A DNA stretch of 21,144 nucleotides from a virus. The position numbers and the translations under genes are program-made. Where the stretch lies: positions 1 to 21,144 of the IMG/VR virus record IMGVR_UViG_3300044637_002055. The stretch is one strand, 5' to 3'. Shown here piece after piece: positions 1,342 through 9,882 of the stretch. Below the pieces are notes generated by a model. The model was given only the letters and a program-made list of their open reading frames with translations. It was not told the DNA's origin and searched no databases. The stretch's first letter is position 1. Each line of letters begins with the position of its first letter.

Positions 1342-1361
1342 GCGGGCCGACAGGAGCCCGC
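1342..1361 (+). promoter_or_regulatory. 5' leader hairpin, copy 1
   Basis: GCGGGC pairs with GCCCGC around the 8-base loop CGACAGGA, directly after the putative transcription start. It is followed by ACAACACCAG and then the ATG 14 bases after the stem. A second copy at 1743-1762 keeps the stem by a paired change at its top base pair. The element therefore probably acts as RNA, perhaps in translation or transcript stability. Confidence 0.5.
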
Positions 1362-1375
1362 ACAACACCAGGAAC

Positions 1376-1690
1376 ATGGCAAACTCTGACCGTCTGACCC
1401 GCACTTCGATCCCAACCGCCGTGGCTGTGGCTGTGGCCAAGGTCACGATCAAAACCGGCTGCATCGTGGGACGCCACCGTGCCCAATGGTTGCTGGATCT
1501 GTGGGAGAGCCCCACCGCTCTACCTGCAGAGCGCAAGCTTGGCCGCCAGGCTCTGCAGTCTGCAGCTGACGCAGCAGGCCGCAGCGTGATCACGCTGGCT
1601 GATGGCCGCACCATTGGGGACCGGGTGTTCTCAAAAGCTTCCACACGCCGGCTGCGTGATTGGAGCCAGGATCGCAACGCCAGCTGCTGA
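1376..1690 (+). CDS. Small basic hypothetical protein with shared leader
   Basis: The product is 104 residues, basic and alanine-rich, with no recognised family. It begins MANSDRLTRTSIPTAVAVAVAK. A middle part (HRAQWLLDLWESPTALPAERK) looks helical, followed by GRQALQSAADAAGRSVITLADG and a basic end (STRRLRDWSQDRNASC). The size and charge would fit a small nucleic-acid-binding or host-interacting protein, but that is only a guess. The ATG has AGGA only 2 bases upstream. The start is supported by alignment with the next leader, which places its ATG at the equivalent position after ACAACACCAG. The TGA stop leads into TCAGC and then a G-run hairpin, as in the 2035-2256 gene. Confidence 0.65.
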   Translation: MANSDRLTRTSIPTAVAVAVAKVTIKTGCIVGRHRAQWLLDLWESPTALPAERKLGRQALQSAADAAGRSVITLADGRTIGDRVFSKASTRRLRDWSQDRNASC

Positions 1691-1697
1691 TCAGCTC

Positions 1698-1721
1698 AGG
1701 GGGGTTGCCAACAGCCCCCCT
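1698..1721 (+). terminator. G6/C6 terminator-like hairpin
   Basis: AGGGGGG pairs with CCCCCCT across a 10-base loop (TTGCCAACAG). There is no T-run after it. It starts 8 bases past the TGA of the 104-residue gene. Confidence 0.65.
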
Positions 1722-1734
1722 AACCCTCTATAAT
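1705..1734 (+). promoter_or_regulatory. Sigma-70-type promoter with -35 in a terminator loop
   Basis: TTGCCA (1705-1710) lies 18 bases before a perfect TATAAT (1729-1734). The -35 hexamer is exactly within the loop of the preceding hairpin. Transcription would start near 1741, just ahead of the leader hairpin of the next gene. This is the best promoter in the GC-rich part of the window. Confidence 0.6.
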
Positions 1735-1742
1735 TCTTTCAA

Positions 1743-1762
1743 GCGGGGCAAACGGACCCCGC
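1743..1762 (+). promoter_or_regulatory. 5' leader hairpin, copy 2
   Basis: GCGGGG pairs with CCCCGC around the 8-base loop CAAACGGA, followed by ACAACACCAG and then the ATG 15 bases after the stem. Compared with copy 1 (1342-1361), the stem's top pair changes from C-G to G-C, so both sides changed together. The loop keeps its terminal GGA. Confidence 0.5.
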
Positions 1763-1777
1763 ACAACACCAGAGACC

Positions 1778-2361: not shown

Positions 2362-2480
2362 GTCCTGATCAGTCGGGCAGGGCAGTATAAGCGGGCCTTA
2401 TGGGTCGCCGGGCCGCCGGGCCGTGAAAAACCTCTAACTACCCTAAGCTATACCGGACCCAAAGAGCCAGAGAGATATTC

Positions 2481-2520
2481 AATCAACTCAAAAAATTTTC
2501 AATCAACTCAAAAAATTTTC
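2481..2520 (+). repeat. Exact tandem duplication of a 20-base AT-rich unit
   Basis: The unit AATCAACTCAAAAAATTTTC occurs twice without a gap, at 2481-2500 and 2501-2520, just before the first AT-rich gene. It could be replication slippage, a binding-site array or an assembly artefact at the junction. Confidence 0.9.
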
Positions 2521-2532
2521 CACCAGATTTTT

Positions 2533-2907
2533 ATGACTTATACGAATTGCCCAAATAATCAAAATGGCCATGTATCAGAAGATCTTCACACATACCAGGA
2601 TATCAGAGAAGATTTAGAAACAGATAGGAAAGAAGCTATCGAATTTTTAGCTCAGCTAAAAACAATGTATCAAATGAATGTAAAAAATTCTGGCATAAGA
2701 GAAGCACTTAAAGATGTTCATACTACTCTCAATATCACAAAACCATCAGAGTATTACGAAGGTAACATTGCAGTTGTATATGATGAGTTGTACACATTAA
2801 ACAAACAATTTTACAAATCCAAAACCAATGCAGAAATTATCAAACTAATCGAAGGAGAAGAAGAATATATCATATTTCCCCATTTGCATTTTGAAAAACT
2901 TCTATGA
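2533..2907 (+). CDS. Small acidic hypothetical phage protein (124 aa)
   Basis: The product is 124 residues and not recognised. It begins MTYTNCPNNQ and continues with charged helical stretches (YQDIREDLETDRKEAIEFLAQLKTMY, NIAVVYDELYTLNKQFYKSK) and ends IIKLIEGEEEYIIFPHLHFEKLL. Acidic residues are abundant. The frame is open further upstream to an ATG at 2326, but that extension runs through the repeats and the GC-rich junction and has junction-like composition. The ATG at 2533 is therefore chosen, although no good Shine-Dalgarno precedes it. Codon use is AT-rich, like the phage genes to the right. The stop overlaps a possible 40-codon gene by ATGA. Confidence 0.6.
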   Translation: MTYTNCPNNQNGHVSEDLHTYQDIREDLETDRKEAIEFLAQLKTMYQMNVKNSGIREALKDVHTTLNITKPSEYYEGNIAVVYDELYTLNKQFYKSKTNAEIIKLIEGEEEYIIFPHLHFEKLL

Positions 2908-3026
2908 AATTTCCAACAAACACAAGTCTCCGAGAGCAATTTTCATATATTACTCTATGTCTTTCAGAGACACTTCAAATAATCTCAGAGAAATTTTTCT
3001 CCAAAAAAATTTCTGAAAAACGTTGA
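2904..3026 (+). CDS. Possible 40-residue protein coupled to the preceding gene
   Basis: An ATG at 2904 overlaps the TGA of the upstream gene (ATGA), a common arrangement for translational coupling, and opens a 40-codon frame ending at 3026. The product begins MKFPTNTSLREQFSYI and ends KKISEKR; it is basic and not recognised. Without it, 2908-3056 would be an unusually long gap for this tightly packed region. It could still be chance, because the sequence is AT-rich and the frame is short. Confidence 0.35.
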   Translation: MKFPTNTSLREQFSYITLCLSETLQIISEKFFSKKISEKR

Positions 3027-3028
3027 TA

Positions 3029-3052
3029 TATACTGTAGTTTTGAATAAAAAT
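3029..3052 (+). promoter_or_regulatory. Possible promoter before the AbrB-like gene
   Basis: TATACT (3029-3034) resembles a -10 box and is followed by an AT-rich GAATAAAAATAC, a loose match to T4-type late promoters (TATAAATA). There is no clear -35 box. Either element would serve the gene at 3057. Confidence 0.3.
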
Positions 3053-3056
3053 ACAC

Positions 3057-3239
3057 ATGTCTACATTTTCTTCATTTACAACAGAAGTACAGTACGATAA
3101 TAAATCTGGTGAATATTTCATTACATTCCCCGATGAGCTACTCGATGAAATGCAATGGATTGAGGGTGATACCTTAGAGTTTGAATACTTTGATCATCAT
3201 GATACTCCTGGTATTCGCATACATAAAGTAGGAGACTGA
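3057..3239 (+). CDS. Small AbrB/MazE-like protein
   Basis: The product is 60 residues. The pattern GEYFITFPDELLDEMQWIEGDTLEFEYFD, with strand, P-(D)ELL, a tryptophan, and GDxLEFE, is that of a swapped-hairpin AbrB/SpoVT/MazE-type domain, in which the typical core reads 'iPkelreelgl.pGd.l.v'. Similar tiny acidic proteins are common in cyanomyoviruses as I recall them. In MazE/AbrB this fold binds DNA, but the strong acidity here makes DNA binding uncertain. A small antitoxin or transcription-factor role is only a possibility, and no toxin gene is next to it. The stop is 12 bases from the start of the large structural gene. Confidence 0.6.
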   Translation: MSTFSSFTTEVQYDNKSGEYFITFPDELLDEMQWIEGDTLEFEYFDHHDTPGIRIHKVGD

Positions 3240-3251
3240 TGACTTATACAT

Positions 3252-6200
3252 ATGGCTAATTGTAGTCCAAAAAAAGATCAAATTGTTAAAACTTTAACTG
3301 GTACATACCCACCATGTCCAACACCAGCAGAAGGAGAAACTGCAACTCCCAAAATCGAAACATTTGGACCATATACTGACAAATATTGGTTTGAGGTAAG
3401 ACCACCTCTTGCACGAAAGACTATTACAAATGGTAGCAAGAAGGAAAAACTAGTTAAGACTGTTATTCAAATTCCTGCTCTTGATGCAGAGAATGCTGAT
3501 GGTGATATTGTAAACTTTATTGATCAAGAGTTTTATCAACAAGAATACGTTTTTGAAAATAATAAATCCAAACCAGTCTATGAAAGAGTTTGTAAAGCAG
3601 ATAAAGTATACGACGAACAATACTTCTATCATATTTTTGAATGGCCATTAGAGCACGATATTCAGGAAAGAACCGTTGGTGGTATTATTGAAACTACTCC
3701 ACCAACCAGCACAGACCCTGAGGCACCAGCACCTTGCCCAGAATATGCAGCATCCAGTACCAGCGTCAGCGGCACATTCACACTTGCTAGAGTAGACAGT
3801 GAAGTAATTGGCCTACCTGAAGGTAGTATTGCATACCATGGAGGTACACTCGACAATAAAATATTCTTTTATTATAAAAAACAAACAGATTTAAATAACA
3901 TTGTTTCAGTCAATACCAATATGATTGCTGTTGGTGATGTCATCAACGGTTGGACGGTAGACAAAGTAGTCAACTATAACTCTGAGCACTTTGATCAAAA
4001 ATCTTTGAGAACCACAGAGTCTGTTAGAAGGAGAGTTTCTAAGGTTTCTGAGAAGAACAAGACTCCTGGGTTTATCTTCATCAACAAAAATGATGGAGCA
4101 GAAGATAGAAAAATCAATGTCGGTGATTTAGTAACTGGCTATGGTATTCAAAAAGAGACCTACGTAGATAGTGTTCAAGGACTTAAAATCTTTCTTACTA
4201 AACCTCTTAAGTATAAAAACAAGAGAAGAGTTAGAAACGTAAAGTTTACCAATACTGGTCTTGCAAATAACATTTCAAACCAAATCTTATGCTATGCAGA
4301 GATTAGTGGTGGTAGTGCTCCATTCGTAAAAGATCAATACTATTCTAAGGATACTCCAAGTACACCTCAAAGTACTAGTATTGTTTATCATGTATTTGAT
4401 AATAAAAAGAACAAAGATATTCAACTGACTACCACCAAAGATATTAGAGTACAAGCAAAGAACAAGAATGATGAAGGTGGTTCTGATGATTCTGAAAATA
4501 GAAAGTATTACCTAGTCACATTCTTAGATCAGACTACTATTAGTAACAAGAATGATGTTCAGATCACTATCACAGATGATCAAAGTGCTTCTGGTAGTGA
4601 TACATCATTTAGATTTGTATCTAAAGTTGAAGTAGTAAACAATAAAAGCTTTAAGGTTTGGTTCAAAACAGATGATAATAAGGTTAATACCTTTGTTCGT
4701 GGCTGGAATGTAACCAGAGTTCCTGGAGGTGCTAATGTTCCAACAAATACAATTCAGGTTATTGCTGGTAAAGGCATAGTAGATCGCTCTGCCGTCTGTG
4801 GAGTTTATGTCAGTAATGATAAAAAGTTCTATACTTATACACCATTATTCTATTCTAGAGATGGATTTTGTGAATCTACTTACTTAGAAGATGATGATGG
4901 TAAGTTTATACTTGGTAGTGTTATTCTAGATGATGGCAGTTATTACTTACAGCAGCAATTCTTATGTGTTGCTCCTGCAGGTGATGCTGCATATCAGGTG
5001 AATAATGTGTTCTGGACGTATTTTAACCGCCCAGCAGAGAAAAATGAGCTTGCTACTTGGGTTTCTAGGCTTGCTGAGTCCAATTTTCTTACAGTTCAAC
5101 AGGAAATTGTTGATACTGAGAAGGTAAAACTTGGAACTCGCACTGTTTTAGCAATAAAAGACTCTGAATGTGACAACAACATCACTCCAGACTACTCAAA
5201 AGTCTACTATCCACATAGTGAATTTAATACTTTTAATGAATATATTGCACCAATCACAAATGATACTATATTTGATCCTTGTCTTGACACAAAAACTCCA
5301 AAATCTTACAGCAAAGAAGAGCTTGACAACGTAATTAAATCAAATTTACAGGGCAATTTTAATCTTGCAAGCATCAATCTACCTGAGGAAATGTACAAAC
5401 AAGTCATTTCCAACGAAAATTCACTACAAAATACTCTATTAAAGGCTATCGAGACTATTGGTGGGTCTGTACCAAAGAAAACAACCATTCCAAACCTACC
5501 TCCACAGATTGAAGGTGAAGATAAATCTAGTCAAGTCTTCAAAACTGAAGCTGCATATCGTATTCCACCTAGGTTTAAATCATTAGAATACGTCATTGAG
5601 GACTTTAGTTTTGTTGATGATTCTGCATTATTCCCAGATTCTGATGAAAATAACATAAAAATTCAGATCAAATCTATTCCTCGCTGGACTGGTTCAATTT
5701 CTCCATCAAGTGGAGCTGGTTGGCAAGCTAATGTTAATACTGTTGGAGGATTTATTAATACAATAACTATTTCTGCTGTACCATTTGTAGTTCCCATAGG
5801 TGGTGGCACAATTAAATGGGCAAAAGGAGTTTTAGCTCCAGGAGGAGAAGAAAAAGAAATACCACTTCCAGAAGTATTATGGCACGGCGAAGGCACAAAC
5901 TATCAAGTTACTTTTGAAAAAACTCTAAACTTCAGAGTAAATGAAGTCAGCAAGAATCTTTCTAATGCAGTCAAGAACAAAGGTAATCCATATATGGATG
6001 AACCTCCATATGCAAAGCTTACTCAAGAATTAAAACCATCTGATACTACAATTACAGTAGATAGTACTCATCAATTTATTTCTGCAGGTTACTTAATTAT
6101 TCCAAAATTTATTGTGAAAAAGGAAATCAATCCAGAAACTAGAAATGAAACTCTATACCATTACTATCTTGGTGAAGAGATTATCTATTATAGAGACAAG

Positions 6201-7293: not shown

Positions 7294-7710
7294 ATGTCCA
7301 TCGTTTCTCAAGAATTAGGCAAAATTTCTAGGTCTTTTAAAGACATTAGCTTAAATTTTGGTTTAAATCCAGTCACAAAGGACATTGTGGTGCTAAAAAA
7401 CGAGGAAGCTATTAAGCAATCAGTTAAAAATTTAGTTTTAACTAAATTGGGTGAGAGATTATTCAACCCATTAATTGGAACTGATACTACTAGCTACCTC
7501 TTTGAACTCAATTCCACATTTTCTGCAAATTCTTTGATTAAAGAAATTGAAAATGTGCTTCTTACATATGAACCAAGAATTACATTAGAAAACATCACTG
7601 TAAATAATGAAGATGATTCTGATGAATTTGACGTAAGTATAGATTATTTTATCGTCGGACTGCCCCCAGTTGTGCAAAACGTAGACTTTATCCTCGTAAG
7701 AGAAAGCTAA
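7294..7710 (+). CDS. 25: Baseplate wedge subunit, T4 gp25-like
   Basis: This 138-residue protein (T4 gp25 is 132) belongs to the GPW/gp25 family, which also includes TssE of type VI secretion. The family core LVLTKLGERLFNPLIGT (47-63) and the diagnostic EPR motif (E93-P94-R95, in YEPRI) are both present, as is the acidic C-terminal strand region ending VDFILVRES. In T4, gp25 clamps gp6 and gp53 in the wedge and contacts the first sheath ring, so it helps trigger sheath assembly. No Shine-Dalgarno is visible before the ATG (TTTTACCTTA). Three bases separate its stop from the gp6-like gene, fitting joint translation. Confidence 0.92.
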   Translation: MSIVSQELGKISRSFKDISLNFGLNPVTKDIVVLKNEEAIKQSVKNLVLTKLGERLFNPLIGTDTTSYLFELNSTFSANSLIKEIENVLLTYEPRITLENITVNNEDDSDEFDVSIDYFIVGLPPVVQNVDFILVRES

Positions 7711-7713
7711 TAA

Positions 7714-9882
7714 ATGGAACTACCTACTATCTCTGCATTAGAATTCGATCAAATCAGAGAATCCATTAAAAATTACATCAAAACCAAGACAGACTTCAAA
7801 GATTATGACTTTGAAGGATCTAATTTGGCTATGTTGGTGGATGTGCTGGCATACAACAGCATGTATTCATCATACAATATCAACATGGTAGCCAATGAGC
7901 TAAACTTGGATACTGCTGTTTTGCGTGATAATGTAGTTTCACATGCCAAGAGATTAGGATATACACCAAATTCATATACTTCAGCAAAAGTAAATTATAA
8001 CATTACAGTAAATAACGTACAATTATATAAATCAGTTACAGTAGACGCTGGACCTATATTCTCAACTACACAAAACAACAAAAACTATACATTTCTATTA
8101 CGAAACAAATTAAACATTAATACTCAAGGAAACAATGCAGTTACCTTTAGTAATGTAGAGTTAATAGAAGGATCAGAATTTAGTATCAGGTATACTGTAG
8201 ACAATTCAAATGAAAATCAAAGATTTTTCATTCCAAACAATTATGTAGATGCAGATACTATCAAAGTTTTTGTAATTTCCGACCCAGGAACCAACTTAGA
8301 AGTTGAATATGAGAGAAAATTAGGTATTGTTGGAATTACAGCATCCGATAGAGTATTTTTTGTTGAAGAAGTTCAAGATCAAAAATATGAAGTAATATTT
8401 GGTGATGATGTAATTGGTAGAAAACTACAAAATGGTGAAGTAATTGTAATCAAATACATCGTATCCAGTGGGTCTGAATCAAATCAAATTTCAACATCAG
8501 AATTAAAGTTTATTGGTGTAGTGACCGGGGATACCACGAGTATCGCTGCAAGTAATATTTCCACAACTGCATTAAGTACAAAAACAGATGGTGGATCTGA
8601 GTTTGAATCCATCAAATCTATCAAATACAGAGCACCTAGATATTATGCGTCTCAGCAAAGAGCAGTAGTAAATAGTGACTATGAAAGTATTCTTCAAAAT
8701 ATTTACGCAAATGCAGATTTAATCAGAGTTATTGGTGGAGAAACCAAATCACCACCAGAATTTGGCAAAGTGTTTATATCAATAAAGCCAAAAATTGGTT
8801 CTACAATTTCATTAGTAGAAAAAAATAAAATTGCAATGGAATTGAAGAAATATGCTGTAGGTTCAATAACTCCAGTTATTGAAGATGCTGTTCCATTTTT
8901 CATAGATTTATATATTGACGTAATATATGACCAAACTAAAACCAATAAAGATAAATTAACTCTGATAAATTTAACAAGACAGATTATATCAGACTACAAC
9001 TTAGATGATGAATTTAAAAACTTTAATGGTATATTTTCATCTTCAAAATTAATATGTTTAATTAGAGATATTGAGCCAGCGGTTAAGTTTGTCATTTTAA
9101 AACCAATCTTTAGAAGATTAGTTCAATTATTTGAGAATGTTCACTATAGATACAAGTTAAATTTCTATACCAGATTAAAAAATAATATTGACACAAAATA
9201 TACTCTAATTAGCGAGCCATTTTGCATCAAAGGTTATAATGCACCTTTATTCTTAGCTGCATTTTCAAATAATTTTTCTGGATGTGAAAAAGATGGTGCT
9301 GTATACTTAATTACAGAGAAAGAAAGAGTAATTGCTATTGCAGGTACTATAAATTATGAAACTGGTGTTGTAGAATTTGACTTAACTGCCTGTCAGACCA
9401 GTCCAATAAATATCTATGTTATTCCAGATAATCCAGACATAACAACAGGAGCAGACACATACCCATCAATTCAACCAGTTGAAGTTGAATACATTGATAT
9501 ATCAAGTATATCAGGACCTACTCGCCCCACCATCAAACCATTGTCAAATCCAAATACATTAATTCCAACTCCAAATCCATCTGGAGATCCACTTGGCAAT
9601 AATCCAACTAATGATATTCCAGGAAGTACTACAACTAATCCAGATGGTAGTGTGACTAATGTAGCTGACGATGGAACAGCAACTACAACCAATCCAGATG
9701 GAACTCAAACCATAGAACCACCAACTGATCCAGTAGATCCTTGTATTGCACTATACGAAAAAATTGAAGCTCAAGGATATATTGATAATGCAACTGAGCA
9801 AAAACTTGCAGAGTATGGATGTCCTCCACCGGATCCAAATATTGAAGACTTCACTCCAGTTACCCCAGATATCTGCTCATGA
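7714..9882 (+). CDS. 6: Baseplate wedge subunit, T4 gp6-like, with Pro/Thr-rich tail
   Basis: This 722-residue protein (T4 gp6 is about 660) starts with the strongly conserved gp6/baseplate-J-like region: FEGSNLAMLVDVLAYNSMY, then NMVANELNLDTAVLRDNV and HAKRLGYTP (about residues 30-83). The middle has GDDVIGRKLQNGEVIVIKYI and YRAPRYYASQQRAVVNSDYE, also typical of this family. gp6 dimers join neighbouring wedges into the ring of the contractile-tail baseplate. From about residue 590 the chain becomes Pro/Asn/Thr-rich with two TTTNPDG(S/T) repeats, then DPCIALYEKIEAQGYI and CPPPDP, ending PDICS. This tail is not part of the gp6 core that I know. The TGA overlaps the next ATG (ATGA at 9879-9882), so the gp7-like protein is probably translationally coupled. 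Confidence 0.92.
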   Translation: MELPTISALEFDQIRESIKNYIKTKTDFKDYDFEGSNLAMLVDVLAYNSMYSSYNINMVANELNLDTAVLRDNVVSHAKRLGYTPNSYTSAKVNYNITVNNVQLYKSVTVDAGPIFSTTQNNKNYTFLLRNKLNINTQGNNAVTFSNVELIEGSEFSIRYTVDNSNENQRFFIPNNYVDADTIKVFVISDPGTNLEVEYERKLGIVGITASDRVFFVEEVQDQKYEVIFGDDVIGRKLQNGEVIVIKYIVSSGSESNQISTSELKFIGVVTGDTTSIAASNISTTALSTKTDGGSEFESIKSIKYRAPRYYASQQRAVVNSDYESILQNIYANADLIRVIGGETKSPPEFGKVFISIKPKIGSTISLVEKNKIAMELKKYAVGSITPVIEDAVPFFIDLYIDVIYDQTKTNKDKLTLINLTRQIISDYNLDDEFKNFNGIFSSSKLICLIRDIEPAVKFVILKPIFRRLVQLFENVHYRYKLNFYTRLKNNIDTKYTLISEPFCIKGYNAPLFLAAFSNNFSGCEKDGAVYLITEKERVIAIAGTINYETGVVEFDLTACQTSPINIYVIPDNPDITTGADTYPSIQPVEVEYIDISSISGPTRPTIKPLSNPNTLIPTPNPSGDPLGNNPTNDIPGSTTTNPDGSVTNVADDGTATTTNPDGTQTIEPPTDPVDPCIALYEKIEAQGYIDNATEQKLAEYGCPPPDPNIEDFTPVTPDICS

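Follow-up and report, generated by a model that had tools for sequence, protein, structure and literature searches.

The window analysed here is the whole of an IMG/VR virus record of 21,144 bp, which carries the T4-type baseplate genes gp25 and gp6 at 7294-9882. Its bases 1-2450 have a GC content of 48-65% and hold the small genes considered below, while the adjoining structural region (2450-6000) is at 31-37%. A chimeric contig, with a GC-rich segment (1-2450) joined to an AT-rich remainder, was ruled out, because the same GC step and gene order recur in related, independent contigs; the step suggests that the cassettes described below are drawn from a GC-rich pool. Judging by their nearest isolates (DSL-LC03, Dishui Lake) rather than by sample data, these phages would be freshwater viruses with picocyanobacterial hosts.

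Two small genes in the GC-rich region, both on the plus strand, are preceded by similar successions of elements. The first cassette opens with a terminator-like hairpin at 1293-1321 (GGGG..CTGACCC..GGGTCCCC), which lies 3' of a gene at 995-1276 and has no long T tract; RNAfold gives -17.0 kcal/mol for the 60-nt segment ahead of the -10 box. The putative -10 box at 1328-1333 is TAAACT, a 4/6 match, at a position where relatives have TACAAT or TACACT, and no clear -35 was seen for cassette 1 of the window. From the -10 spacing the transcript is predicted to start at the AA of 1340-1341, 6 nt past the -10 box. The sequence reads TCAA, a hairpin at 1342-1361 (stem GCGGGC/GCCCGC, loop CGACAGGA), ACAACACCAG, GAAC and ATG, the part after the hairpin forming an unstructured, A/C-rich linker (1362-1375, ACAACACCAGGAAC) that reaches the start codon of a 104-aa gene of family 1 (1376-1690). 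In the second cassette the terminator-like hairpin (1698-1721, GGGGGGTTGCCAACAGCCCCCC; -26.5 kcal/mol for the 60-nt segment) contains the -35 box TTGCCA (1705-1710), which is separated by an 18-nt spacer from the -10 box TATAAT (1729-1734), together an 11/12 match to the consensus. The predicted start, from the same spacing, is the AA of 1741-1742, and the sequence runs TCAA, a hairpin at 1743-1762 (stem GCGGGG/CCCCGC, loop CAAACGGA), ACAACACCAG, AGACC and ATG, again with an unstructured, A/C-rich linker (1763-1777, ACAACACCAGAGACC) up to the start of a 61-aa gene of family 4 (1778-1963), which has a single close relative (G012/L250). A terminator-like inverted repeat, read from the sequence, follows this gene at 1973-1992 (GGGAGGCC-TCCG-GGCCTCCC). 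A repeat search returned 1316-1371 and 1717-1772 as a direct repeat at 75%. The decamer ACAACACCAG also occurs once elsewhere in the window, inside a coding region on the minus strand (9362-9371), and is thus not specific by itself.

The sequence-only reading had described these two leaders as sharing a hairpin whose top, loop-closing pair is flipped from C-G to G-C with the stem kept, in front of proteins that are not alike. Both leaders and the flipped pair read as described, and the two proteins fall into different blastp clusters; the 5' ends it guessed near 1340 and 1741 agree with the starts that we predict from the -10 boxes. Its description of 8-base loops ending in GGA holds in the window, but the GGA ending is not general, as relatives have GGT, GAA or GAT. 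The 41-42 nt leaders 1 and 2 fold at -13.5 and -12.8 kcal/mol (z of -4.2 and -3.5), and none of 200 shuffles did as well.

Other leaders and repeats lie close by. At 229-900 a DUF7227/GP88-like gene has a PeSL-like upstream region (GGGCCAGCCAGCCTGGCCC, TAAGAT; PeSL, promoter-early stem-loop) and a leader that lacks the hairpin of the two cassettes (TTTCAGTTCAAACCAAACCA); similar GTTCA leaders, a second leader type, also precede other small genes of DSL-LC03 and Sf-FR1. Degenerate ATCAGCATTCCTGATCCATCAGCA repeats (2271-2372, three partial 35-nt copies), with similar repeats in G012, lie between small-gene region and structural genes, and a 20-nt tandem duplication (ATATTCAATCAACTCAAAAA / ATTTTCAATCAACTCAAAAA, 2475-2514) sits at the composition boundary.

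Copies of the hairpin element, one to four per record, were found in the window and 17 other IMG/VR contigs, where they are confined to one locus per record, upstream of the baseplate gene gp6; in 16 of the 18 records they lie 4-12 kb upstream of it. A 172-kb record has its copies at 17,810-21,263 and gp6 at 28,485, and a 246-kb record has them at 126,777-127,548, with gp6 at 131,621. The collection, to which two specific pattern scans contributed further contigs, came to 27 distinct hairpin-leader instances, and the proteins downstream form 12 blastp clusters without detectable similarity to each other, although a distant relationship between clusters 4 and 12 is possible. Because several of the contigs are nearly the same as one another (G003/G004, G006/G007, G009/G010 and G016/G017), the independent records number about 14. 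Identical hairpins occur in phages whose gp6 proteins range from 41 to 100% identity, and their presence at identities down to 41% suggests either recent cassette exchange or strong constraint. Relatives of the 104-aa protein encoded behind hairpin 1 contributed eight contigs to the collection, and the leader hairpin is present in all eight, with one mismatched pair in L243/L244. A covariance model (CM) scored hairpins 1 and 2 at 54.7 and 58.4 bits (R1, built with both included); its recovery of 18 of 18 records is circular, since the same records supplied the model, and the non-circular test is a set of protein-anchored homologues described below.

The relatives are all metagenomic, apart from weak or hand-read candidates in two isolates. 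In DSL-LC03 the candidate at 77219-77256 (TGAGG-CAAACGA-CCTCA) is a weak CM match at 14.2 bits and E = 2.3, and in Sf-FR1 a candidate leader before SfFR1_65 was read by hand. Close DNA copies of the leader were not found in isolate phages by blastn, and the CM gave no matches on S-CRM01 and Sf-FR1. That the leader or family 1 came from a host is not supported: scans of bacterial and archaeal genome contigs, which need near-exact patterns, returned 0 matches. Family 1 has 44 homologues in viral contigs and none found in bacterial or archaeal genomes, and its AlphaFold model (pLDDT 75) had no significant structural match. Rfam 15 gave 0 matches above the gathering threshold in the window, the best in 1250-1850 being weak chance matches. 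Loose pattern scans with CAAG-N-ACAACACCAG and CAAGC-N-GCACAACAC each returned at least 120 matches, and for the former no convincing further member was seen among the matches listed; a promoter-plus-hairpin pattern picked up two true members, along with five matches by chance. The 246-kb phage (G002) has a hairpin leader of another kind before a 54-aa gene (GGGGGAGGCAACTCCTCC, following TAGTAT; L311, 4268-4340), which may be a further diverged member, and Sf-FR1 (L306, 2667-3830) has small genes behind CTATACTGACATCAGTTCA leaders and a TACTAATACAAACTC-type repeat array just upstream of the gene at 3645.

The arrangement of the element is regular at its 5' side. From the -10 hexamer to the stem there are 8 or 9 nt in 27 of the 27 distinct instances, which places the first paired base at a predicted +3 or +4, and the distance from stem to ATG varies from 14 to 18 nt and is longer in distant homologues. 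The fixed -10 spacing and variable ATG distance imply that the position of the stem is set by the transcript start, not by the ribosome site. All 27 distinct instances have a consensus-like -10; a -35 with at least 4/6 matches is present in 20 of the 28 listed instances, and in ten of the 28 the -35 reads TTGACG, TTGACA or TTGCCA and falls within the upstream hairpin, with 18 nt between it and the -10. In nearly every instance a hairpin folds directly upstream of the -10. A terminator scanner called none of these upstream hairpins, whose T tracts are weak, so that termination there is uncertain. Each cassette consists of a terminator-like hairpin belonging to the preceding gene, often including the -35, followed by a putative sigma70-type -10 and the leader. 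The transcript would begin with about two unpaired bases, then a GC-rich hairpin of 5-7 bp, an A/C-rich unstructured linker with a weak ribosome site, and the ATG.

Comparison of related contigs indicates how genes behind such leaders change. G001 and G003 are nearly identical over more than 200 nt, up to and including the leader, after which a 97-aa gene in one stands against an unrelated 58-aa gene in the other, and similarity returns at the stop codon. The window, compared with G012, is without one whole cassette of about 390 bp, and the alignment picks up at the promoter ACCCTCTATAAT. In both comparisons the gene replacement or indel breaks at the cassette, as described for PeSLs, and the case for module exchange rests on these two junctions, few but exact. 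Shared cassettes would provide the homology for swapping genes, as has been proposed for PeSLs. Concerted homogenisation within a genome was not supported, since hairpins of different families are equally alike between genomes (0.754) and within one (0.752; permutation p = 0.77).

In an alignment of 26 sequences the expected pairing is present in 91.6% of cells and both sides have changed in three of the six stem pairs, figures that are conservative because the outermost pair is open in seven rows, in part because their stem sits one position out of register. Covariation scores 0.252, compared with 0.085 in shuffled alignments (none of 500 reaches the observed value) and 0.004-0.037 when the partner is slid, and repeating the test on realigned matches gave the same picture. 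As members had been found partly by the leader pattern, we made an independent, protein-anchored test, in which 44 homologues of the 104-aa protein (39-93% identity) were fetched through protein patterns alone. Among the 36 distinct leaders of this set, in which the -10 was probably mis-picked for L341, L353, L360 and L364, the first paired base is at the predicted +3 in 28, and z is below -2 in 21. Their stems are rewritten with pairing kept, as in GCCGG/CCGGC, GCGGGA/TCCCGC, GGGGGGC/GCCCCCC, AACGAGG/CCTCGTT and GCAGGGG/CCCCTGC, and when the arms of 17 stems, themselves chosen as stems, were re-dealt among one another, pairing fell from 0.99 to 0.72. Cassette leaders are also much stronger than the rest of the leaders at the same loci, and pair from +3/+4: all 25 tested are at or below -8 kcal/mol with a pairing onset of +1 to +5, a combination seen in 15 of the 123 others (5 of 22 for the GC-rich ones); as the 25 had been preselected as hairpin leaders, this comparison covers strength and position, not discovery. 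The hairpin is thus real and conserved in structure. The sequence-only reading had proposed a conserved RNA element reused across cassettes, which may act as a regulatory leader or stability element; conservation and reuse are supported, and the further members with compensatory changes that it called for were found, including among leaders chosen by protein alone. Upstream of seven family 1 homologues (L342, L345, L349, L350, L354, L358 and L367) we also noted longer leaders of the form GCG-A-GGGGG ... CCTCC ... CCCCCCGC, in which two alternative hairpins are possible; these might represent a switch or simply an extended stem.

These data bear on two alternatives in which no RNA function is required. 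That the hairpins are shared merely through recent copying of cassettes, as structure without function, is highly improbable: some copies in a single genome (G003) do not differ at all over about 40 nt and several contigs are near-duplicates, but covariation is present, and the stem at +3 persists at 39-55% protein identity, where leader sequence is not conserved. A purely DNA role is, together with a protein operator, one of the main rivals. Here the inverted repeat would be a dyad operator past the promoter or a GC-rich patch of homology for recombination, consistent with the two exchange junctions at or adjoining it. Covariation alone cannot separate RNA from DNA, because compensatory change also preserves a DNA palindrome and G-U pairs are rare (only one, in G003). 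We consider this reading unlikely, since a homology patch should conserve sequence and the stems are instead rewritten with pairing kept, and since stems of 5-7 bp, loops of 4-9 nt and a shifting register are ill-suited to a rigid dimer operator.

The loops are relevant to the second main rival, in which the hairpin is an RNA operator through which a phage- or host-encoded RNA-binding protein jointly controls all cassette genes at the level of translation or decay. Among close relatives the loop varies little or not at all at C1, A3 and G6, which is more than a plain shield needs and would fit a bound protein. In distant homologues, however, the loops are rewritten (ACAA, AAGA, ACCACC, GAGAGA) with stem and position kept, and the hairpin does not cover the ribosome site. 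A CsrA/Rsm site in particular was ruled out, as the GGA is not conserved. Taken together, an operator of this kind seems a rather doubtful explanation.

The position of the hairpin could also point to an action on the polymerase in early elongation, whether as an initial pause, as an attenuator or as an antitermination element of the put kind that would let polymerase pass the terminator-like hairpins separating the cassettes. Phage HK022 has leader RNAs of the put type, which offer a precedent, and the onset near +3 would suit such a role. The segment from +3 to +22 would, however, be partly inside the polymerase while the hairpin forms, no Rfam match was obtained, and read-through would not be needed with a promoter-like site before each gene. 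An intrinsic attenuator was ruled out by the lack of a T tract after the hairpin, and we regard a polymerase-acting hairpin as very unlikely overall.

The reading that we favor, by a little more than even confidence, is that the window holds two copies of one mobile control cassette, each with a leader as its transcribed end; the cassette would be a new PeSL variant in which the leader shields the 5' end of the mRNA from host RNases. The setting would be the hyperplastic small-gene region of a freshwater T4-like cyanophage, where each small gene would probably be transcribed early and as a unit by itself. The leader hairpin then probably shields the start of the viral message, a step to which we attach confidence near one half. 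In E. coli, 5' stems protect mRNA by blocking access of RppH and RNase E; as a single-stranded 5' end is what RppH and the RNase E sensor require, a GC-rich stem behind two unpaired bases is protective there (PMC3997798). Cyanobacteria have RNase E and RNase J but lack close homologues of RppH (PMC10989914), which counts against assuming the same 5' decay pathway in the host. During infection a marine cyanophage increases host RNase E, and antisense RNA covers and protects its own transcripts (PMC9692554); shielding of phage messages by a leader would fit such a setting. The broader proposal, that these are an undescribed family of phage 5'-terminal hairpins carried on mobile promoter cassettes and protecting the message of any gene from host 5'-end-dependent decay, is more tentative and falls somewhat short of even confidence. 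If true, it would amount to a transferable structural cap for phage early mRNAs. The element itself offers a short, possibly portable leader for cyanobacteria as well as a marker for annotating cassettes in phage metagenomes.

Several known systems resemble parts of this arrangement. The 5' stem-loops of E. coli ompA and papA (Emory, Bouvet and Belasco 1992, via PMC3997798) are likewise GC-rich hairpins a few nucleotides from the start, followed by an unstructured ribosome-binding region; as far as that account goes they serve single host genes, whereas here the hairpin is part of a repeated, mobile phage module with putative stabilization in a host without a close RppH homologue. The haloviruses HGTV-1 (PMC3950731) and HF2 (PMC8707807) have a repeated intergenic promoter motif before many genes, which in HGTV-1 includes an inverted repeat and has been likened to PeSLs in a review (PMC3950731); these are archaeal viruses with TATA-type promoters, and the portions of these sources available to us report no covarying 5' leader hairpin.

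The closest relatives of the element are the PeSL cassettes of T4-type phages, reportedly the work of Arbiol et al. in 2010 and Comeau et al. in 2014. An unstructured leader is a trait of the type example, RB49, and is not known to be part of the published PeSL definition. In the RB49 small-gene regions we located 35 promoter-like sites, of which a few are probably false because they were picked by consensus; the clear PeSLs place the stem between -35 and -10 (TTGACA-GGGGATCGGTGATCCCC-TATAAT), and their leaders, for example ATCAAGACGAG..AGGAGAATCAAA, lack structure. Only 4 of these 35 putative-promoter leaders reach -8 kcal/mol or lower and the other 31 are weaker, in contrast to all 25 of the cassette leaders tested here, and for this reason we speak of a variant and not of a plain PeSL. 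In the present cassettes the -35, where it can be recognized, falls within the upstream hairpin, and the predicted 5' end of the transcript carries an additional, covarying hairpin. As related in papers that cite the original work (PMC4503421, PMC3950731), PeSLs are small intergenic cassettes in which a strong, early sigma70-like promoter is merged with a stem-loop that serves as a terminator, in several copies per genome between the ORFans of a hyperplastic region, with gene exchange at breakpoints in the cassette; the one to four copies per record before genes of 12 families, and the two junctions, agree with that description. Beyond what the sequence-only reading had proposed, the hairpin can thus be seen as the last part of a PeSL-type terminator-promoter-leader cassette whose genes are exchanged at the leader, and this gives a concrete molecular picture of how cyanophages may load and swap ORFans in the hyperplastic region. 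In the ORFanage of the marine T4-like cyanophage S-PM2, also a variable ORFan region, PeSL-mediated exchange was considered and thought unlikely, as its authors found too few PeSL-like motifs (PMC4503421). The freshwater relatives studied here differ in having denser cassettes and visible exchange, which would extend PeSL-type shuffling to freshwater cyanophages, after the doubts raised for their marine relative, and add an RNA part to it.
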